Below are positions 1 to 30,659 of a stretch of 44,068 nucleotides of DNA, in pieces. The stretch is from a bacterium (lineage in GTDB: Bacteria; UBA4055): the NCBI GenBank assembly GCA_029559475.1, contig JAKQBN010000064.1:1-44068 (forward strand), written 5' to 3'. Made by a program: the position numbers and the translations under genes. The first letter of the stretch is position 1. Each line of letters starts with the position of its first letter. The notes under the pieces are model-generated. The model saw nothing but the letters and a program-made list of their open reading frames with translations. It was not told the DNA's origin and searched no databases.

Positions 1-1544
1 TGGAGGTCGTTCTGTTCCTTTTCATTCAGAATACGTCGATGCTCGTTTACAGACACGTTTTATTGAATATTCACAACCGGAGAAAGGAGAAGAGGGTCGT
101 GATTTACGGCGCGGGTAAAGCCGGGCAGAAGATAGCTGAAGAATTCTCAGATACGGTTTACAAGGTAAAATTCTTTATAGACGACAATGATAAGGTAAGG
201 CAGAGAACAATTGACGGAGTACCGGTTCTTTCCAAGGAAACGTTCATTGAGCTTTCAGAGTCCAAAAAGATCAGAAAATACGATCTGTTAGTGATCGCGA
301 TGCCTTCACTTGGCGACAGAAAGATGATAAAAAAATTCTTCGAGGAGCTCAGCCCATATTTTTACGAGGTCAGGATCCTGCCGGCGCTCTCCGACATTCT
401 TCAGGATAGGAATTTCTTTACTCAGCTCAGGAACATTGATGTTAAAGACCTTTTAGCAAGACATCCCAAGGATCTGAACGAGGACAGGATCAGAAATTTC
501 ATAAAGGGTAAAAGGATACTTGTAACCGGCGGCGGCGGGAGCATAGGTTCCGAGATATGCAGACAGTGCTGCAAGTACGGTGCGGAACAGGTGATAGTCC
601 TCGACCACAGCGAATTGGACCTTTATATGATAAACGAGGAACTTTCCTGCAAAAAAGTCGTGCCGGTGCTTCAGTCTGTAAGGGACATAATCAGCCTCGA
701 GAAGACTTTCTCTAAATACAGGCCTCAGATAGTGATCCACGCAGCGGCGTACAAGCACGTGCCGATGGTCGAGTACAATGTGATAGAAGGTATTACAAAC
801 AATATAATCGGCACGAAGAACTGTATCGACCTTTCGATCCATTACAAGGCCGAGAAGTTCGTGCTGATCTCGACGGATAAAGCCGTCCGTCCGACCAACG
901 TGATGGGCGCGACGAAGAGGGTATGCGAACTTTACGCCCAGAACTCTAATCACAACGGCACTGAGATCTGCGCGGTGAGGTTCGGCAACGTCCTCGGTTC
1001 GTCCGGTTCTGTGATCCCGAAGTTCACTCAGCAGATAAGAGACGGCGGCCCGATCACCATCACCCATCCCGAGATCACCCGTTATTTCATGCTTATCCCG
1101 GAAGCCTGCCAGCTGGTTCTTCAGGCGGCTTCGATCGGGCGCGGCGGCGAGGTGATGATACTTGACATGGGCGAACCCGTCAGGATCGTCGATCTGGCTA
1201 AGAACATGATCAAGTTAGCCGGACGCCCGGACATCCAGATAGAGTTTACGGGGTTAAGGCCGGGCGAGAAGCTCTACGAGGAGCTTCTGATCGACGACAC
1301 GGACAAGCGGACCGAGTTCGAGTCGATCACGATCGCGAAGGCCGCGAAGTACGACATCGCTCTTCTCAATGGTCAGATCATGGACCTTCTGGCGTGCGAT
1401 GACAAGATCGCAAAGCTGAAAGAGATTGTTCCCGAGTTCAATCATTCTCCGAACGTGACGCCGAAAGAGGATTATTTTAAAGAGCACAAGATGACCGCGC
1501 AGGAGCCCGACCTTTTCAATCAGGGATCCGCAGTCAGAGGCTGA
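1..1544 (+). CDS. CapD/WbpM-type nucleotide-sugar 4,6-dehydratase/epimerase, 5' end outside the window
   Basis: The frame is open to the first base (first full codon at position 3), so the gene is cut by the window edge; the ATG at 39 is internal, because family members have an N-terminal membrane region before the part seen here. Two Rossmann modules are visible: GAGKAGQKIA near 108-137 and TGGGGSIGSE near 525-554. STDKAV at 869-886 and MGATKR at 902-919 form the long-chain SDR active-site region, in which this family has Met where most SDRs have the catalytic Tyr. GLRPGEKLYEEL near 1252-1287 is the usual C-terminal signature. Relatives act on UDP-GlcNAc-type sugars for O-antigen, capsule or glycoprotein glycans; the exact product cannot be told. 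GC content rises sharply along the gene (see findings). Confidence 0.93.
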   Translation, partial: EVVLFLFIQNTSMLVYRHVLLNIHNRRKEKRVVIYGAGKAGQKIAEEFSDTVYKVKFFIDDNDKVRQRTIDGVPVLSKETFIELSESKKIRKYDLLVIAMPSLGDRKMIKKFFEELSPYFYEVRILPALSDILQDRNFFTQLRNIDVKDLLARHPKDLNEDRIRNFIKGKRILVTGGGGSIGSEICRQCCKYGAEQVIVLDHSELDLYMINEELSCKKVVPVLQSVRDIISLEKTFSKYRPQIVIHAAAYKHVPMVEYNVIEGITNNIIGTKNCIDLSIHYKAEKFVLISTDKAVRPTNVMGATKRVCELYAQNSNHNGTEICAVRFGNVLGSSGSVIPKFTQQIRDGGPITITHPEITRYFMLIPEACQLVLQAASIGRGGEVMILDMGEPVRIVDLAKNMIKLAGRPDIQIEFTGLRPGEKLYEELLIDDTDKRTEFESITIAKAAKYDIALLNGQIMDLLACDDKIAKLKEIVPEFNHSPNVTPKEDYFKEHKMTAQEPDLFNQGSAVRG

Positions 1545-1643
1545 TATATAATATTAACACAGTCTACGTGGTATAAATTATAGTATTATATTGTCGTAAT
1601 TAAGACACCTGATATTACTTCATTCAGGATCTCATCATATTAT

Positions 1644-1974
1644 TTTTCGAAGCAGGCTACAACCGGCTGAAGCCGGCATTAATATCACTCGCATATCATC
1701 CTCCAAAAAAATATCCGCATTAATCATATATTAAATTGGAGGTTAACCGTACCGGTACGATCTTTGATATTTTTTCTCCGGATATATGGCTCGTTCAAAC
1801 GACAATACTGGGATGCACCCCCGCTTCTAAAAACATATGACTCGACAGATGACCTCTGCCGGTCAAGGAGCGAGACATAATTCATATCAAAACGGATCCC
1901 GTTACATCTCTTTACCTGCCGGTACGGTAAATACAATAAAGTAGCGATCAGCCTAATGAGGCAGGGTCCGTTTT
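1644..1974. repeat. Dispersed structured intergenic repeat, copy 1
   Basis: This fills most of the 458-bp gap between the convergent genes ending at 1544 and 2003. It shares two blocks with 15167-15476. The first (about 1644-1680) holds TTTTCGAA followed by the hairpin CCGGC-tgaa-GCCGG (1663-1676). The second (1852-1974, about 123 bp) is nearly collinear with 15353-15476 and includes GAGACATAATTCATAT. The second block closes on itself: AAAACGGATCCC (1889-1900) pairs with GGGTCCGTTTT (1964-1974), 8+3 bp with one bulged T, and encloses smaller hairpins (TTTACC/GGTAAA; GCCT-aatg-AGGC). Between the blocks lie a 12-bp palindrome CGTACCGGTACG (1748-1759) and arms CCTCCAA/TTGGAGG (1700-1706, 1736-1742). 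No gene is visible here. Confidence 0.8.
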
Positions 1975-2002
1975 AAGATGAAGTTATTTCTCGCAATTAA
2001 TT

Positions 2003-4129
2003 TTACTGAACGTAACGCTCGATCGAAAGAACGCCCTTGACCCCGAAAAGCTTTTTCCTGAGCTTGATAAAATGATTAATGTTCTTTACTTTGCCGATCA
2101 GGTTGCCGATGACTATGGAATTGTCGGTCTTAAGCTCAAGAAAAGTCAGATTAATATTCAAAGAATTAATGATCTTGATAACTTCATACAGAAGATTCGG
2201 CCTGTCTTCAGCAGCAATTTTAAAACTAACTTCGAACTCCTCGTCTTTGTCCACCTCCCAGACAGTATTAACAAGACTCACGGGATCGGCGGAACCGATA
2301 ACCGGACAGTTAGAAAGATGGATCATAACGGTGTCATCATCGAGCATCTGGCCTACAATAGTATCGCCAGGAAGCGGATGGCAGCAGGTAGCGTATATTA
2401 TCTTTTTCGAATTCTCTTCTTTAATGATCACGTTCTTAGGGCTTTTGATCCTGATCTTCTCGACAAATTTTTCCAGAATACTCTCTTTTTTCAAAGAACT
2501 TAGCTTACGCATAAAATTATTCGGCTTGATCTCGCCGCTGCCCACCGCATAATAAAAATCCTCGACAGCCGTAAACCCGTAGGCTTTAAGAATGGTTTTC
2601 AATGATTGCCTCTCGATCGGAAGATTATATTTCTTAAGCTCATTAATAAAAATATCCCTTCCCAGCTTAACAGTATCGTTATATTCGGTCTTTTTAAGAA
2701 AATGCTTGATCGAAGTCCTGGCCCTCTGACTCTTCGCGAATTTAAGCCAGTTATAGCTCGGATGAGCTTTCGGCGAAGTAATAATCTCGATAATATCGCC
2801 CTTCTCTAGAGTAGTAGAAAGCGGGATAACCTTGCCTCTTCTTTTCGCAGCAATGCACTGATTTCCGATCCTCTCATGGATCTTATAAGCGAAATCAACG
2901 GGTGTTGAGCCTGCCGGAAGTGTCACCATATCCTTTTTAGGCGTAAAAACGAATATCTCGCCGGAGACAAGGTTTATCTTCAGTTCTTCCAGGATCTCTT
3001 TCGGGTTGCTTGCCTCAAAACTCTCCTGCAGTATTGTTCTCAGCTTAAGTATGTACTCATCGATGGCGTGAAGGTCATCATTATTCGACGACTTGTACCT
3101 CCAGTGCGCCGCAAGACCGAATTCCGCGATCTCATGCATTTTTTCCGTTCTGATCTGGATCTCTATCACTCTGTTCTCGAAAAGCACTTTCGTATGGAGA
3201 GACTGATAACCATTCGCTTTAGGTGCGGCGATATAATCGTTGAACATACCCTGTATCGGCATAAAAAGCTGATGAATTATACTCAGAACATTATAGCAGT
3301 CCTCGGTCTCGGGAATAATTATCCTGAGAGCGATAATATCCAGTATCTCCTCGAACGTTTTTTTACGCACATTAATTTTGTTGAAGATCGAATAATAGTG
3401 CTTTATTCTGCCGTTGACAACAGCTTTAATATTCCTCTTTTCAAGCTCGCTCACAATAACAGGAGTGATCCTGTGGATGTATTGATCCATCGAACCTAAA
3501 GAATCCTCGAGCTTTTTTGAGATCGCTTCGTAATTGACCGGATCGAGGATCTCGAAAGACCTGTCCTCGAGCTCGTTTTTAACCTTGAACATTCCCAGCC
3601 TGTAGGCTAGCGGTGCGTAAATGTCAAGGGTCTCGCGCGCTATCTTCTTCTGCTTTTCAGGCTTCATGAACCGGATAGTCCGCATATTATGAATACGGTC
3701 GGCGAATTTAATAAGAATGACACGCAGGTCCTTGATCATGCTCAGAATAAGTTTTCTGTAATTCTCGGTCTGCTTTTCCTCAAAAGTATCGAAATATATC
3801 TCGTTGATCTTCGTAACACCGTTCACGATCTCGAAGATCGTATCGCCGAATTTATTTTTAATCTCAACGCCGGATATTTCCGTATCCTCCACGACGTCGT
3901 GAAGAAGCGCGGCGGCTATAGTAACATCATCCACCTTTAATTCGGACAGGATCTCGGCGACCATAACCGGATGCTCGATGTATGGTTTTCCACTCCGCCT
4001 GAAAACGTTTTTGTGAGCCTGGAACGCGAAATCATAAGCCTGCCTGATAAGATCGGCGTTGACGTTCATTCCCGTCGCCTGAAGCCTTTTTATAATGTTC
4101 TCTATCTGTATCAGATATCGTGACGGCAT
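2003..4129 (-). CDS. Bifunctional (p)ppGpp synthetase/hydrolase, RelA/SpoT family
   Basis: At 708 aa this is a full-length long RSH protein. The N-terminal HD hydrolase domain has the intact HDVVEDT motif (about residues 77-83), so alarmone hydrolysis should be possible. The synthetase domain carries RIKHYYSIFNK, DIIALRI and NGYQSLHTKV, with the catalytic-type EIQIRT motif near residue 325, so synthesis from GTP/GDP and ATP is also expected. TGS (from about 390, beginning IFVFTPKKDMVTLPAGSTP) and C-terminal ACT (from about 640) regulatory domains follow. The gene starts 6 bp after the stop of nnr and is probably cotranscribed with it. It ends beside the dispersed repeat. Role: control of stringent-response alarmone level in the cytoplasm. 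Confidence 0.95.
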   Translation of the reverse strand: MPSRYLIQIENIIKRLQATGMNVNADLIRQAYDFAFQAHKNVFRRSGKPYIEHPVMVAEILSELKVDDVTIAAALLHDVVEDTEISGVEIKNKFGDTIFEIVNGVTKINEIYFDTFEEKQTENYRKLILSMIKDLRVILIKFADRIHNMRTIRFMKPEKQKKIARETLDIYAPLAYRLGMFKVKNELEDRSFEILDPVNYEAISKKLEDSLGSMDQYIHRITPVIVSELEKRNIKAVVNGRIKHYYSIFNKINVRKKTFEEILDIIALRIIIPETEDCYNVLSIIHQLFMPIQGMFNDYIAAPKANGYQSLHTKVLFENRVIEIQIRTEKMHEIAEFGLAAHWRYKSSNNDDLHAIDEYILKLRTILQESFEASNPKEILEELKINLVSGEIFVFTPKKDMVTLPAGSTPVDFAYKIHERIGNQCIAAKRRGKVIPLSTTLEKGDIIEIITSPKAHPSYNWLKFAKSQRARTSIKHFLKKTEYNDTVKLGRDIFINELKKYNLPIERQSLKTILKAYGFTAVEDFYYAVGSGEIKPNNFMRKLSSLKKESILEKFVEKIRIKSPKNVIIKEENSKKIIYATCCHPLPGDTIVGQMLDDDTVMIHLSNCPVIGSADPVSLVNTVWEVDKDEEFEVSFKIAAEDRPNLLYEVIKIINSLNINLTFLELKTDNSIVIGNLIGKVKNINHFIKLRKKLFGVKGVLSIERYVQ

Positions 4130-13142: not shown

Positions 13143-15143
13143 ATGTCCGATTTAAAAGCGAGCTACAAATTCGGGTTATATGGAAGATGCCCCGTATGCA
13201 AGGATATAACTCAGGAGATATGCGAAGGATGCGGAGCAACGGAATCCTTTACCGATTCCAGCAAACCCGGCATTGTTATATGTACCGAATGTAATCTTGA
13301 ACACAGCATAAGGTGCAGCAAACCCGGATGCGGTAATCAGATAAAGGTACTAAGAACTCCGAAAAACGCTGATGAAAAAACTAGAATAGACGAGTTTATA
13401 TATAGAAAAAAGAACAAAGATATGGACAAAAGGGTTTTCATTATAAAAGAAACCCCGAAGGCTTCTGTCATAAAAGAAGTAAAAGTTCCTGTCTCGGATA
13501 TCAAACAGAAAGAAAGCGAAGATCTTTTAATACTCGATACCAATGTTCATATTCCCCAGGCGGTACTTCCCGGCTCTGGCACGGTCAAGCTGGTCGGTAA
13601 GGAGAGTCCGTTTCAGTCTTCATCTCTTGAGGATATGAAGGAAAGCGTTACACCTGAAATAAAACCTGCTCCCGCAGCGGAGAAACCCGTTACTGCTACA
13701 AAAGCGGAAGAACCTGTAGTGATCTCTTTGAAAGAGGAAACGCAGAAAAAGACCGAAAAGACTCCGTCTTCTTCTCCTTCTCCGGAAGAAAAACAGGAGC
13801 TTGATAAGATCAAGAATTTCTGGAAAACAAAAGAGCTGACGGAAAAAGAGGAGAAAAAAGAAGAAGAGAGAAGGATAGTCAACCAGTTCTATGACGAACA
13901 GGAAGACGATGCTCTGGACAAGAAGATCAATTTTGAGAATATTTATAATGAAACCGTTTATTTCGACTGTAAAGTATGCGGCAAGGAGGAGCAGAAGATA
14001 GTCTGCGATAAATGCGGCCAGTTCAACCAGTTCTCTTTAAACTACGATGCTTTGAGCTGTAAATGCAATAACGAGATCAAAGTTAAGACATGCAGCTGCG
14101 GAGCAAAACACGGCCACAGCGATTTTTTCCTCGTTTCTGACGGTATAAAATGGCAGTATTCAAAATCGAAGAGCTTTTATAATTACAGAAAAGGCAGAAT
14201 GCTCGTTTTTTCGACATGCCCGACTTGCGGTGTTTTTTCAGTAGAGAAATGCAAGGTCTGCGGCAGTAAAGTCAATTTCGGATTTCCGAACAGGAACAAT
14301 GAGGTCTACTGCAAGAACTGCGGTACAGTAAATCAGTTTTTGTGCGAGAACCGCAACTGCAACGATACGGTCAAAGCTCTCAAGAACCCTAATTCAATCG
14401 AGCAGCAGCTTGAATGGCTGAACGAAGTGATGAATTTTAAGACAAGACTTACGAGCGAGAAAGTCAAGTACGCTGAACCCGGTTTTGAAAAGAAGCCCAA
14501 ACCTGCCGCTCAGGAAGTTTCTATCGGGGATGATTCAGCTCCCGATTTTACGAATTCATTTATAGAGGAATTTGATTCTAAGACAAAATCTATTATCACT
14601 TCGTCATTTATATCAGAAGTAGAGGATGAAGTTAAACAGAGACAGAAACTCCAGGATGAGCTTAAGAATTTTAATAAAACTCAAGTAGCTCCGCAGCAGC
14701 CTGCGAAACCGACATTCGGTGCACCGTCAGGTTCAAAACCTGTTCAGGCTCCCGTGGGATTCGGTAATATCAATATGGAAAATGAAAGTTCAGGTCCTTC
14801 TGTTATTTCTTTTGATGATTCAGCTAGCAGTAAGACCAAGTATATTATTATCGGTATAGTAGCGGTCGTTATTATAGCTGCTGCTTACTGGGTTTATTCA
14901 GCTTTCTTATCCGGCGATAAAGGGCAGGTTCCAGCAGTACAGCCTGTTGAAGAGATCTCTCCGGCAGATTCATCCTCAGCTGATACTTTGAAAGCGCTTT
15001 CAAAGGACGAGAAAACGGATAAGAACGCCGCTCAGACAATTATTGATGCTCAGAAGAGTAATATAGATAAGGCAAAGAAAGCGGTCGAGGCTAATCAGAA
15101 AGCCGCAGAGGATCAGGCAAAACAGCTTGAGCAGATCAAGTAA
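13143..15143 (+). CDS. Tail-anchored-like membrane protein with three zinc-ribbon modules, unknown function
   Basis: This is a 666-aa protein without a signal peptide. Cysteine-rich module A (about residues 16-78) and module C (about 362-428) share the same layout: CPxC, CxxC, CxxC and a C-x4-C pair, followed by a similar tail (VLRTPKNAD versus ALKNPNSIE). Module B (about 274-328) is a shorter variant (CKVC, CDKC, CKC, CSC). A Lys/Glu/Pro-rich low-complexity stretch links A and B. A transmembrane helix at about 576-597 is followed by a Ser/Asp- and then Lys/Gln/Ala-rich tail. With no signal peptide, the zinc modules are most likely cytoplasmic. The ATG is preceded by GGAG with 7 nt spacing. 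It is monocistronic. I do not recognise the family. Confidence 0.8.
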   Translation: MSDLKASYKFGLYGRCPVCKDITQEICEGCGATESFTDSSKPGIVICTECNLEHSIRCSKPGCGNQIKVLRTPKNADEKTRIDEFIYRKKNKDMDKRVFIIKETPKASVIKEVKVPVSDIKQKESEDLLILDTNVHIPQAVLPGSGTVKLVGKESPFQSSSLEDMKESVTPEIKPAPAAEKPVTATKAEEPVVISLKEETQKKTEKTPSSSPSPEEKQELDKIKNFWKTKELTEKEEKKEEERRIVNQFYDEQEDDALDKKINFENIYNETVYFDCKVCGKEEQKIVCDKCGQFNQFSLNYDALSCKCNNEIKVKTCSCGAKHGHSDFFLVSDGIKWQYSKSKSFYNYRKGRMLVFSTCPTCGVFSVEKCKVCGSKVNFGFPNRNNEVYCKNCGTVNQFLCENRNCNDTVKALKNPNSIEQQLEWLNEVMNFKTRLTSEKVKYAEPGFEKKPKPAAQEVSIGDDSAPDFTNSFIEEFDSKTKSIITSSFISEVEDEVKQRQKLQDELKNFNKTQVAPQQPAKPTFGAPSGSKPVQAPVGFGNINMENESSGPSVISFDDSASSKTKYIIIGIVAVVIIAAAYWVYSAFLSGDKGQVPAVQPVEEISPADSSSADTLKALSKDEKTDKNAAQTIIDAQKSNIDKAKKAVEANQKAAEDQAKQLEQIK

Positions 15144-15166
15144 TAGTTTTATATCAGTCATATTGT

Positions 15167-15476
15167 TTTTCGAACTTGGCCGCAGCCGGCTAATGCCGGT
15201 ATTAATTAAATCAACATACCCGATATAAATTCATTCCGGATCTCATCCTGCAACCATTAATCTCAATCGCTTCTTTGATAAGGGTGTCGTACCTGCGAAA
15301 AGGAAAATGTAACGGATATCGATCCGTAACGAATTATATCGGGTATTCGGTTACCTTCTGCCGGTGATGCGGCGAGACATAATTCATATAAAAACGGATC
15401 CCGTTACTCCTCTTCACCCGCCGGTGCGGTAAATGCGATAAAATATCGATCAGCCTGATGTGGCAGGGTCCGTTTT
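15167..15476. repeat. Dispersed structured intergenic repeat, copy 2
   Basis: This fills most of the 371-bp gap between the convergent genes ending at 15143 and 15515. The left block has TTTTCGAA (15167-15174) and the hairpin CCGGC-taat-GCCGG (15186-15199). The right block (15353-15476) matches 1852-1974 closely, with the same outer stem AAAACGGATCCC (15391-15402) / GGGTCCGTTTT (15466-15476). Between them, a perfect 13-bp inverted repeat (ATACCCGATATAA at 15216-15228, TTATATCGGGTAT at 15334-15346) encloses another hairpin, ACGGAT-atcg-ATCCGT. The middle part shares little with copy 1 apart from short words such as GGATCTCATC, which occurs at a different place. No coding sequence is seen. Confidence 0.8.
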
Positions 15477-15514
15477 TATATTAACTTATGTCGAGCAATT
15501 GATAATATAAAGAA

Positions 15515-16459
15515 TTATATAAAGACAGAACCGGGTTCAAGTTTGAAACCATTAAGAAAACAGCCTACATCGCTTGCCGGCCTCGAATCGAGCTGAACTC
15601 TTGTAACAGTTAAGGATCCCGAACCTGCGGCGATCCTGATATAACCTTTCCTGCAGTCTGATTCAACAACTGTGCCGGGCTCGAGTCCGGTTGAAATATT
15701 ATCAAAAGCTGTTTTAAGGAATTTAATACGCTTACCATTAATAGAAGTGCATGATCCCGGCTTTGGTGAAAGCCCCCTCACCCTGTTATGAATGCTTTCG
15801 GCGCTCTTTGTCCAGTCTATTATAAAATCATTAGCGAAAAGTTTCGGCGCAAGTTTAGAACTTGAATTCTCCTGTCTGTATGATTTTGCGCATCCTTCCA
15901 GAATATCTGTCACGGCATCCGCCAGAACGTTTTTTCCCATAAAAGAAAGCCTGTCATAAAGTGAGCCGTAATCGTCGTCATTAGTAATAGTCGTACTGAC
16001 CTGTTTAACTATATCGCCCGAATCGACATCGCCGCTGTTAAGAAAGAATACGGTAACTCCGGTCTCTTTTTCGCCGTTAAAAATTGCATGATTTATCGGA
16101 GCGGCGCCTCTGTAATCCGGAAGAAGAGATGCGTGTAGATTGACCGAACCGAGCTTCGGGATCTCAAGAACCCGGGGAGCCAGTATGCGGAAAGCGACGA
16201 CAACGAACAGATCCGCATCCAGGTTCTTTAATTCTTCAATAAATAATGGATCTCTCATCCTTACAGGCTGAAGAACAGGGATATTAAGCTCTAAAGCCTT
16301 TTCTTTAACGGCAGTATAACAGACCTTGAGCCCGCGTCCTCTTTCCTTATCAGGCTGAGTAACAACCGCCTTAATATTTATTCCCCTCTCATAAAGCTCT
16401 ACAAGGGGAGGTACCGCAAAACCCGGCGAACCCATATAGATAATTGACCTTCCGCTCAT
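15515..16459 (-). CDS. fmt: Methionyl-tRNA formyltransferase
   Basis: The length of 314 aa is typical. The N-terminal formyltransferase domain begins IIYMGSPGFAVPPL and contains SLLPDYRGAAPINHAI and a VDSGDIV segment, matching the tetrahydrofolate-binding and catalytic region (Asn-His-Asp type) of Fmt. The C-terminal OB-like domain follows a VRGLSPKPG motif near residue 230. It formylates Met-tRNAi for translation initiation. The start lies 3 bp after the xseB stop, so it is probably translated from the aspS-xseB-fmt transcript. The usual def partner is not next to it in this window. Confidence 0.96.
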   Translation of the reverse strand: MSGRSIIYMGSPGFAVPPLVELYERGINIKAVVTQPDKERGRGLKVCYTAVKEKALELNIPVLQPVRMRDPLFIEELKNLDADLFVVVAFRILAPRVLEIPKLGSVNLHASLLPDYRGAAPINHAIFNGEKETGVTVFFLNSGDVDSGDIVKQVSTTITNDDDYGSLYDRLSFMGKNVLADAVTDILEGCAKSYRQENSSSKLAPKLFANDFIIDWTKSAESIHNRVRGLSPKPGSCTSINGKRIKFLKTAFDNISTGLEPGTVVESDCRKGYIRIAAGSGSLTVTRVQLDSRPASDVGCFLNGFKLEPGSVFI

Positions 16460-28479: not shown

Positions 28480-29565
28480 ATGTTCGAAAGAAGCAAGACC
28501 GGAAGAATCGCCTACATGATAAACGAACTCGCGGAAAACGGTTTTTTCACAAAGTCCGGGCTGGAAAAGTATGTTCTGGAATCCACCGGAGAGGTTTTAA
28601 GCGACAGTTCGATCAGAAGGTCGGTCAACGATCTCAGGGATTATTTCGGCCTTTCCGTGATCTACAATAAAAAAGACAACATTTATATAGTTAAAGATAA
28701 AAGATATGGTGTGCCTGATGCTGAGAACTTTATAGACAGGCTTGAAGTGATCAAAAGAAAACCATCCGGGAATCAGGACCTTCTGATCTTCTACAGCTTC
28801 GTAAAAAGTATGATATTCAGCGAATATTATTTTCCTCCGAGACAGAACAGGGACGAATCGGGAAAAGTCCGCGACTACGATGACATACTCAGGATAATCG
28901 AAAGCATTCTTAAAGAAGAATTGTCGGAAAAGGATATAAGGTTGGCAGGCAGGATCGAGTACCACGTTTCCGAACATTACAAAAAAAATCAGAGAATGAA
29001 GTTCAACAGCATGATAAATGCCATTCTTGACTCAATGAGACATGAGTATATGATCAGATTTAAATATCACGGGATAGAAATTCTTACAGAGCCTGTAAAG
29101 ATAATCCATTACAACGGGATATGGTACCTGATGGCGTACGTTTTCAGTTCGCCCAAGCCAGACAGCGTTAAAAAAGTCAGAACCTACAATCTTGCACTGA
29201 TCGAAGGGAACATATTTAAAACGAAAGAGAAGTTTTCGGGCGAAGAGTATCAGATACCTGAATATAAATCTACTTTCGGGATTATTTCAAGCAGCCATAC
29301 TGACACCGCTGTTATCAGATTCTATGGTGAACTTGCGGAAAGGATGAAAGAAGTACTGTGGGTGGATACTCAGACGACTTCTGAAGGCGAAGATCCTGTT
29401 AAAGGCAGATACTGCCAGTACGAGCTTCTATATCCTGTCAAAAACAATTTCGAGCTTATCGGTAAAGTACTCAGCTTTCGCGGTAACGCTGAGATCATCT
29501 CGCCGTCCGAACTCAGAGAGATCTGGGTTGGAACGATAAAAAAAATGTACGACTCGATCAATTAA
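28480..29565 (+). CDS. WYL-domain transcriptional regulator
   Basis: In this 361-aa protein, an N-terminal winged-helix-like region (about 1-75, with DSSIRRSVNDLRDYFG as the likely recognition helix) is followed by a helical middle and a WYL domain that contains the diagnostic GIWYLMAY (about residues 215-222) after HGIEILTEPVKIIHYN. WYL proteins often sense nucleic acids or nucleotides and control DNA-damage or phage-defence genes, but here the only linked gene is the GT2 enzyme. It ends 8 bp from the convergent metallophosphoesterase. Confidence 0.88.
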   Translation: MFERSKTGRIAYMINELAENGFFTKSGLEKYVLESTGEVLSDSSIRRSVNDLRDYFGLSVIYNKKDNIYIVKDKRYGVPDAENFIDRLEVIKRKPSGNQDLLIFYSFVKSMIFSEYYFPPRQNRDESGKVRDYDDILRIIESILKEELSEKDIRLAGRIEYHVSEHYKKNQRMKFNSMINAILDSMRHEYMIRFKYHGIEILTEPVKIIHYNGIWYLMAYVFSSPKPDSVKKVRTYNLALIEGNIFKTKEKFSGEEYQIPEYKSTFGIISSSHTDTAVIRFYGELAERMKEVLWVDTQTTSEGEDPVKGRYCQYELLYPVKNNFELIGKVLSFRGNAEIISPSELREIWVGTIKKMYDSIN

Positions 29566-29573
29566 CAGTTTTC

Positions 29574-30659
29574 TTATTTGAGAGGAAGTAAGTTTAATAC
29601 AACGATCTCATTCTCAGTCAGAACACGCATGAACGGCCCCCAGACTCCCGTTCCAGAAGTTACGTAAAGCTTCATATTACCGATATCGTAGAGTCCGTGC
29701 ATGTATTTGTACCTCATCCGTACGAACAGCCAGAAGGGAAATATCTGGCCGTTGTGGGTATGTCCTGAAAGCATAAGGTCCATACCTTTCGCCTCAGCTT
29801 CATCATAAAGCGCAGGCTCATGGTTCAGAAAAATGTTGAATTTTTTTCTGTCAGTTTCGATATTGTCAAAATAAACAGCCTGCTCGGATCTTTTATTCAT
29901 AACATTATTTCTATTCCATTCAAGTCCGTAAACGGTGATCTCTTCGTTAAAAACATCATACCTGCGGTTATGGTCGAGTGTTGTTACGACTTTACAGTCT
30001 TTAAAAAAATCATCCGTATTCTGAAGATACCTTTCATGATTGCCGGTAATAAAATATGCGGGCGGATTCATTTTCGAAAATAATTTAATATCCTCAGGTT
30101 TCAGATTGTCGTCATCCAGCAGGTCGCCGGTTATAAAAACCAGATCTGGCGAGATATCATTTATTCGAGCAATTATATTTTCAAGAAAATGAAGAGATTC
30201 TGTGCCCAAATGGACATCGGAGATCTGAACGAATTTATAGGGTCTGCTTATTTTTTCCGAAGTAATGTCAATAGTCTTGATATTGAGCTTTGCGGCATTA
30301 TAAAAACCGTGAACAAAAATAAATATAACAGAGACCGTCAGAATTATAAAGTTCAGAGCAGGACTGAAATGGAACGGCAGAGATATCAGCTTTATTATGA
30401 CGGACAGAAATAAAACGTACATGATCAGGACCGCCAGATAAAAGCTGAGATTCCAGAGAAAATTTATATGAAAACCCCTGCCTGAGAACATTAGAACATA
30501 GAATACTGCCAGTACAATTCCTGATACTCCGAAAACATATTTGACCGGAAGCCTTTTCTCAATAAGCACGTTCAGCATCATTACTGTAAAAAAAGTAAAT
30601 AGATAGAAAATAAATGATGCAGTTCCGAAAAAAAGTATGAAAGCTTTAATATTATTCAT
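29574..30659 (-). CDS. Membrane-anchored metallophosphoesterase
   Basis: The 361-aa protein has four hydrophobic helices in the first 125 residues, then a calcineurin-like phosphoesterase domain with all five metal-site blocks: QISDVHLG, VFITGDLLDD, FITGNHE, LNHEP and LSGHTHNGQIFP. The architecture is that of the YaeI/YkuE-like group, whose members act on lipid phosphates such as UDP-diacylglucosamine; the substrate here is unknown. It starts 9 bp after the C25 peptidase stop and is probably cotranscribed with it. Confidence 0.9.
   Translation of the reverse strand: MNNIKAFILFFGTASFIFYLFTFFTVMMLNVLIEKRLPVKYVFGVSGIVLAVFYVLMFSGRGFHINFLWNLSFYLAVLIMYVLFLSVIIKLISLPFHFSPALNFIILTVSVIFIFVHGFYNAAKLNIKTIDITSEKISRPYKFVQISDVHLGTESLHFLENIIARINDISPDLVFITGDLLDDDNLKPEDIKLFSKMNPPAYFITGNHERYLQNTDDFFKDCKVVTTLDHNRRYDVFNEEITVYGLEWNRNNVMNKRSEQAVYFDNIETDRKKFNIFLNHEPALYDEAEAKGMDLMLSGHTHNGQIFPFWLFVRMRYKYMHGLYDIGNMKLYVTSGTGVWGPFMRVLTENEIVVLNLLPLK

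Follow-up and report, generated by a model that had tools for sequence, protein, structure and literature searches.

Two gaps between tail-to-tail genes in the window (the whole 44,068-nucleotide stretch of DNA analysed here) hold related sequence, and the locus raises the question of what such a sequence is and why it should recur there. A first-pass annotation had offered a transcript-end element, a mobile non-autonomous element or an RNA; some evidence was obtained for each, and the three options are compatible with one another. The hairpin repeats of ~120 bases that lie dispersed in intergenic regions of Delongbacteria, an uncultured phylum, are a previously undescribed family, and its members, judged from sequence, are best read as retained and spreading gene-end hairpins, most likely acting as RNA.

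Two modular arrays in convergent gaps

The gaps at 1545-2002 and 15144-15514 are convergent and share related sequence as annotated, with more copies than had been reported. The near-gapless alignment of ~123 bp recurs in a blast comparison of 1852-1974 with 15357-15476 (87% identity, E 6e-36), and the gap-free repeat is longer still, covering 1855-2001 and 15357-15503 at 84%. Within it lies a 125-bp imperfect palindrome, designated E1, at 1870-1994 and 15372-15496, the two copies being 87% alike. What had been taken for the outer stem, AAAACGGATCCC/GGGTCCGTTTT, is indeed identical in both copies but forms an inner stem; at its true ends E1 has GCGAGACATAATTCAT ... TTATGTCGAGC in the window copies, and the stops of the minus-strand genes lie 8 bp (copy 1) and 18 bp (copy 2) from the E1 end, not the 28-38 bp given earlier. 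The shared start, TTTTCGAA with a CCGGC/GCCGG hairpin, is likewise present in both gaps (1631-1683 and 15157-15207) but belongs to a separate, truncated module, the left half of E3. The features of the two arrays and their flanks are as follows.

39..1544, plus strand: flanking gene for polysaccharide biosynthesis (Polysacc_synt_2, Pfam PF02719), its tail towards array 1
1606..1636, plus strand: E2 left-arm remnant (ACCTGATATTACTTCATTCAGGATCTCATC); blastn matches 1611-1636 to E2 consensus positions 5-30 at 84%
1631..1683, plus strand: E3 left half (TTTTCGAA and the CCGGC/GCCGG hairpin), E3 positions 1-53 at 86%
1686..1795, minus strand (covariance-model orientation): complete E4, nested inside E3; E4 positions 1-110 at 90%; covariance model R2 matches 1687-1794, minus, E 1e-5
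1800..1843, plus strand: E3 right half, E3 positions 85-128 at 79%
1844..1869, no strand: inter-module linker of the AACCTCTGCCGGTCA type; such linkers stand between modules in most arrays
1870..1994, plus strand: E1, complete hairpin and the central finding (nhmmer; covariance models R1, 129 bits, and R2, 119 bits); arms ~1870-1903 and ~1963-1994, conserved head ~1904-1962
2003..4129, minus strand: flanking RelA/SpoT gene (Pfam), its stop 8 nt from array 1; the matching site in the relative UBA12480 holds E1 and E4
13143..15143, plus strand: flanking gene without assigned function, its tail towards array 2
15157..15207, plus strand: E3 left half of array 2, E3 positions 4-54 at 80%
15218..15344, minus strand: E2, complete hairpin closed by a separate outer stem, ATACCCGATATAA/TTATATCGGGTAT (model R1, 109 bits; alignment A2)
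15345..15371, no strand: E2-E1 linker, from the sequence and comparison with other arrays
15372..15496, plus strand: E1, second window copy (model R1, 122 bits), 87% to the first
15515..16459, minus strand: flanking methionyl-tRNA formyltransferase gene (Pfam Formyl_trans_N/C)

Array 1 therefore reads E2 remnant, E3 left half, E4, E3 right half, linker, E1, and array 2 reads E3 left half, E2, linker, E1. E1 and E2 are one element in opposite orientations and align end to end; E3 and E4 are remoter members with the same layout, which the later covariance model also detects. A convergent gap of just 8 bp at 29565-29574 of the window holds no element, in contrast to the two occupied gaps.

Extent of the family

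The source genome (G000; 2.28 Mb in 83 contigs, about 92% complete) contains 13 near-complete E1 copies by blast, about 30 occupied loci with related modules and 49 matches to covariance model R2, all of these copy counts deriving from sequence searches. The units are 105-130 bp long, intergenic, palindromic, non-coding and multi-copy, in keeping with MITE- or ERIC-like elements in size and form. The first-pass annotation had proposed a search for further copies, and many were found in the source genome and its relatives: copies occur in seven of 13 Delongbacteria genomes (one family of the phylum), spanning four genera. In genomes G005 and G008 the hairpin family is at low copy.

Outside the phylum, none of 277 genomes contained a copy at E 1e-5 or better in a search that used stricter filters, and IMG/VR, PLSDB and phage records likewise yielded none. 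An exact-pattern scan of the collection of genome contigs returned only two assemblies of the same genus, both public metagenome assemblies, and one chance match within a coding region (L118). For the window, Rfam 15 gave no gathering-level match, and a permissive scan only uxuA, at 17.9 bits (gathering 66.8).

Compensating stems around a conserved head

The covariation check proposed earlier revealed massive compensatory change in the stems: across 56 copies, 24 of 25 stem pairs show it on both sides, and pairing cells amount to 88.6%, as against 34-47% after partners are slid by 1-3 columns. The covariation score is 0.631, compared with 0.19 for shuffled and 0.08-0.14 for slid alignments, and was reached by no shuffle; alignment A5 was fitted to the model, and MAFFT alignments that are not model-fitted give the same covariation. 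The top mutual-information pairs are, almost without exception, helix pairs. Covariation on a defined fold thus goes beyond the controls, as is looked for in structured RNAs.

The outer stems are diverse, from GCGAGACATAA, ACCCGATATAA, ACCTTATATAA and GCTGCTCCTGT to CATTTTCAAAATC and GACCGCGCCGG, the complement always standing opposite. The head of ~60 nt is nearly fixed (CCGTTACC.TCTTTACCCGCCGGTACG ... CTCCAAA ... AATTAATG); it is non-palindromic, it is the most conserved part of the element, and no consistent inner pairing was detected in it. The earlier description of conserved stems with variable loops is therefore reversed for the whole family: it is the stems that vary, with compensation, and the apical head that is conserved. 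Because stems change yet still pair, the tip stays constant and some copies are flipped in place, the hairpin fold is probably under selection.

Two other candidates were dropped: a small conserved ORF, since indels in the head are not multiples of three, and a hammerhead-like CTGATGAG in E1, which is missing from other members and for which Rfam returned no hammerhead.

Strand asymmetry

When the arms were paired by dynamic programming for motif counts, 5'-GA-3' faced 5'-GA-3' on the element strand 50 times, in 44 of 78 elements, as in TTCA-GA-TAAAAGC-GA-ACCC ... GGGT-GA-GCTTTTA-GA-TGAA of UBA12480 (L177). TC facing TC, which is GA/GA on the other strand, had a count of 0 in the same 78 elements, as did AG/AG and CT/CT. 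GU wobbles number 40, as against 21 AC pairs. Pairwise changes at orthologous loci comprise 15 between Watson-Crick (WC) and GU, one between WC and AC and 12 compensatory, a 15:1 count that holds one locus three times and falls to about 10 to 1 when collapsed by hand (binomial p about 0.01); the GA and GU counts are, moreover, partly dependent through shared ancestry.

Cruciform formation and palindrome repair are strand-blind, whereas a folded RNA or single-stranded DNA (ssDNA) is not, and the asymmetry fits a folded single strand. The preponderance of GA/GA, 50 to none, together with that of WC-GU over WC-AC, points to the folded single strand of one orientation as what seems to be the selected form.

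Retention and inversion at orthologous sites

Judged by the flanking genes, C15a is occupied at the same place in G002 (C64c, at the RelA 3' end), and so is C15b (G002 C64a). Further shared sites are C4 with C149, C11 with C38b and C42 with C96; C37 (G001 C293, G002 C152) and C56 (G001 C180, G002 C185) are shared in three genomes, C22 is shared with G001 C116, and C55b with G011 C181, in another genus. Both window loci are probably occupied in the relative UBA12480 too, although at C15b the G002 copy could correspond to the E2 and not the E1 module. At the RelA locus, G002 (L030) has E1 and an E4-like module, the outer stem of E1 being GCTTCTTCTGT where G000 has GCGAGACATAA. The stem types GCGAGAC (G000) and GCTGCTCCTGT (G002) each recur at several loci inside one genome, which suggests homogenisation or re-insertion.

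At C37 the element alone separates the convergent genes, and it is kept in three species. Between G000 and G002 the flanks are colinear (86% and 89%), yet the element agrees at 77% inverted as against 44% direct; the comparison of G000 with G001 gives 79% inverted and 48% direct, whereas G001 matches G002 in direct orientation at 83%. The C11a element agrees at 92% inverted as against 55% direct, and its neighbour C11b is not inverted. The copies inverted in place are:

L157:1688-1809, compared with L179:1688-1809 and L165:1698-1818: in-place inverted copies, flanks colinear
L161:1667-1786, compared with L176:1794-1912: in-place inverted copy, flanks colinear

Positions 1667-1932 of L161 hold two members in tandem, in the same orientation, 26 bp apart and with unrelated outer stems; both occur in G002, where one is flipped. 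A degraded copy in G000 (C61; L018 1501-1560) keeps the left arm and head and has apparently lost the right arm. It apparently occupies the same locus as a complete copy in G002 (C32, 73-194), which implies that the loss is tolerated.

Empty sites, nesting and candidate mobilisers

Empty sites were sought by finding orthologous flanks with a chimeric protein query. At C55a the genes abut in G001 (TGGTAATATG), and in G000 about 450 bp with an array lies between them; at C47a, C44a and C52a a relative likewise has the flanks joined with no array between them, so that presence and absence are seen at one site. Relatives without the element exist also for C36, C60, C19, C10 and C47b, where just one flank aligned or the gap is rearranged and no boundary can be drawn. 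Modules are nested as well: a whole E4 lies within E3, between positions 53 and 85, at C15a, C4 (with a short E3 left half), C41, C47c and C47d, and at C22 E3 is interrupted by E2. With a module nested in it, the outer E3 arms simply lengthen the hairpin.

No target-site duplication was detectable, flanking direct repeats being as frequent as in shuffles, and TA..TA ends were present in one of 79 elements. A RAYT-type Y1 transposase (PF01797) is absent from G000, G001 and G002, genomes that are about 91% complete, as is a reverse transcriptase (PF00078). IntI (TIGR02249) is absent above the cut-off in the same three genomes and exceeds it only in G005 and G008. The arms of 79 elements contain no attC cores (R'' RYYYAAC / R' GTTRRRY); the REP tags GTAG and CGTC, which in REPs mark one end of a 20-40 bp palindrome, occur in four of 79 each.

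The IntI genes above the curated cut-off are L238 (G005 C68:9631-10554) and L239 (G008 C155:2-814). Two tyrosine recombinases of G000 (C80:62799-63605 and C44:69171-69974) match the IntI model on both sides of positions about 180-239, which they lack; similar genes are present both in relatives that carry the repeats and in relatives that do not. The two are candidate mobilisers. A tRNA-Sec-like stretch, not called by ARAGORN, lies beside array C52a (L095, about 1800-1950), and array C55a (L093) adjoins a SelB-like GTPase start (MSHFILGTAGH); both are probably coincidence.

Gene context

The 30 loci of G000 comprise 12 convergent, four divergent and 14 tandem gaps, and the background gene pairs of the same stretches 10, 13 and 62, respectively. 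Convergent gaps are thus enriched (12/30 as against 10/85, Fisher p 0.002, on simple ORF calls and a background that includes gapless operon pairs), and the expected preference for them stands, though it is not exclusive: a strictly convergent location was rejected, the first set of loci having comprised eight convergent, four divergent and 11 tandem. The first-pass annotation would have yielded to a lack of further copies, of compensatory changes or of a preference for convergent gaps, and all three are present.

Many elements begin or finish 0-10 nt from a stop codon. Relative to tandem neighbours, however, their strand is random (14 sense, 14 antisense), which weakens a simple reading as cis-acting 3'-UTRs, and 12 elements lie in divergent gaps. 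A T run of an intrinsic terminator (T4 or longer after the 3' end) was seen in three of 79. REPs of other bacteria, too, are concentrated where genes converge or run co-directionally, and a role as RNA is ascribed to them (PMC3733652). In plastids, stem-loops that separate tail-to-tail genes can invert where they stand and, in the cases discussed in PMC6824564, are credited with mRNA stability.

A proposed gene-end hairpin and its rivals

Any explanation must accommodate the observed dispersal, nesting and empty sites, stems that covary round a conserved head, the asymmetry between strands, copies kept at orthologous sites, inversion in place and the preference for convergent gaps. The best explanation of the whole, put forward tentatively and at slightly less than an even chance, is a duplicating non-autonomous unit that is selected as a one-strand fold and serves as an RNA hairpin at gene ends. 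Each element, about 105-130 bp of DNA, would duplicate non-autonomously, and its selected form would be a long hairpin whose stem, with tandem sheared-type G.A pairs, would present the ~60-nt head. The folded strand would be RNA, made as part of the neighbouring gene's transcript in gene-end gaps, where it may shield or bound transcript ends, and the head would probably be bound by a protein supplied in trans. Spread would require some recombinase; the palindromic arms would provide the inverted repeats for flipping, and the positions kept would be those that the 3' ends of genes tolerate.

What favours RNA is that old copies standing alone, each with stems specific to its locus, still pair where they are; per-copy selection for transposition explains this poorly. 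Against RNA stands the random orientation of elements in tandem and divergent gaps, and the choice of RNA over ssDNA is for this reason one that we infer; the divergent-gap elements weigh particularly, since no neighbour would transcribe that strand. The scarcity of T runs also counts against a gene-end RNA, and the conserved head against plain end protection, which alone leaves the head unexplained.

Possible, if on the unlikely side, is that the hairpin is folded ssDNA on which a structure-specific recombinase or transposase acts (compare attC with IntI, and REP with RAYT), all else being a by-product of mobility. Dispersal, nesting and empty sites agree with this, as do the random orientation to genes and inversion in place, and a strand-specific fold is equally expected from ssDNA. 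However, the three element-rich genomes have no RAYT-type Y1 transposase and true IntI is found only in G005 and G008; attC core sites and target duplications were not detected, GTAG and CGTC tags are confined to four of 79 elements each, and compensatory pairing in old solitary copies would hardly be maintained by transposition competence alone.

Palindrome correction yields coordinated changes without selection. The elements would on that account be neutral miniature inverted-repeat elements, their palindromes repaired by template switching and their positions reflecting tolerance at gene ends, a view that we regard as rather improbable. Degraded copies do occur, C61 being apparently a truncated counterpart of G002 C32, and REPs elsewhere are also enriched between convergent genes (PMC3733652). 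Palindrome correction is, however, blind to the strand asymmetry of both the GA/GA and the WC-GU counts, the non-palindromic head is the most conserved part, and the element that is the sole spacer of the C37 convergent genes is retained in three species. Multicopy small RNAs, independently transcribed and acting in trans through the head, would suit the conserved head with its compensating stem, the orientation independent of neighbours and the flips without loss, but are very unlikely, given that several elements start 3-8 nt past coding sequence with scant room for a promoter, and that a terminator-like T run and an Rfam relative are missing.

Relation to known repeats and significance

The gene-end RNA hairpin would work most like REP/BIME or ERIC at gene ends, yet the tests for their tag, their transposase and a target duplication came out negative. 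Bacterial MITE-like intergenic palindromes include ERIC (127 bp), RU-1, NEMIS, YPAL and RUP (review PMC2229807; ERIC and RU-1 being listed together). The Delongbacteria family resembles ERIC-type MITEs in size, imperfect palindromy, intergenic, non-coding and multi-copy nature, presumed non-autonomous mobility and a transcript folding into a long stem. It differs from them in that no target-site duplication or TA ends were detected, in its compensating stems round a conserved head and tandem G.A pairs, and in its orthologous-site copies, nested modular arrays and confinement to Delongbacteria.

Like REP/BIME/REPIN (PMC3116915, PMC3733652), it consists of extragenic hairpins with a preference for convergent and co-directional gaps, forms arrays in which neighbours are inverted and has a strand-specific fold; unlike REP, its units are 125 bp and not 20-40 bp, and they have no GTAG/CGTC tag and no Y1 transposase in G000-G002. 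Integron attC sites are likewise imperfect hairpins of variable sequence, recognised as folded single strands, but attC conserves its ends where the Delongbacteria family conserves its head, and the family has neither R''/R' end motifs nor gene cassettes.

BOX elements of pneumococcus are modular. As intergenic repeats with a predicted structured transcript (PMC3049150) they resemble the present family; compared by description, they differ from it in that here whole hairpins are nested within the heads of other hairpins. Plastid small inversions (PMC6824564) are also hairpins that often lie between tail-to-tail genes, the loop flipping between species and the stem staying; unlike the Delongbacteria family, the cases presented there are single and short, the example loops measuring 5-8 bp, with no dispersed conserved-head family among them.

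Conserved sequence is the mark by which most palindromic repeats of bacteria are recognised, whereas the Delongbacteria family keeps its stem only through compensation and holds the head fixed. Its strand-specific signature is not one expected from neutral repair of palindromes. In-place inversion is here documented at bacterial hairpin elements; in-place hairpin inversion has so far been best known from plastids. It is a speculative and quite unlikely prospect that the family is a new self-spreading class of structured RNA. Such an RNA would be a hairpin with a conserved head, perhaps catalytic or bound by a partner of its own; it would multiply with neither reverse transcriptase nor Y1 transposase, persist at gene ends in several genera of a candidate phylum and be able to flip in place without losing its role. 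The filled, flipped and empty orthologous sites form a comparative system in which to judge whether dispersed hairpins behave as parasites, as transcript-end devices or as RNAs, and, given RNA data, element loss, flipping and insertion could be matched to neighbouring transcript ends.
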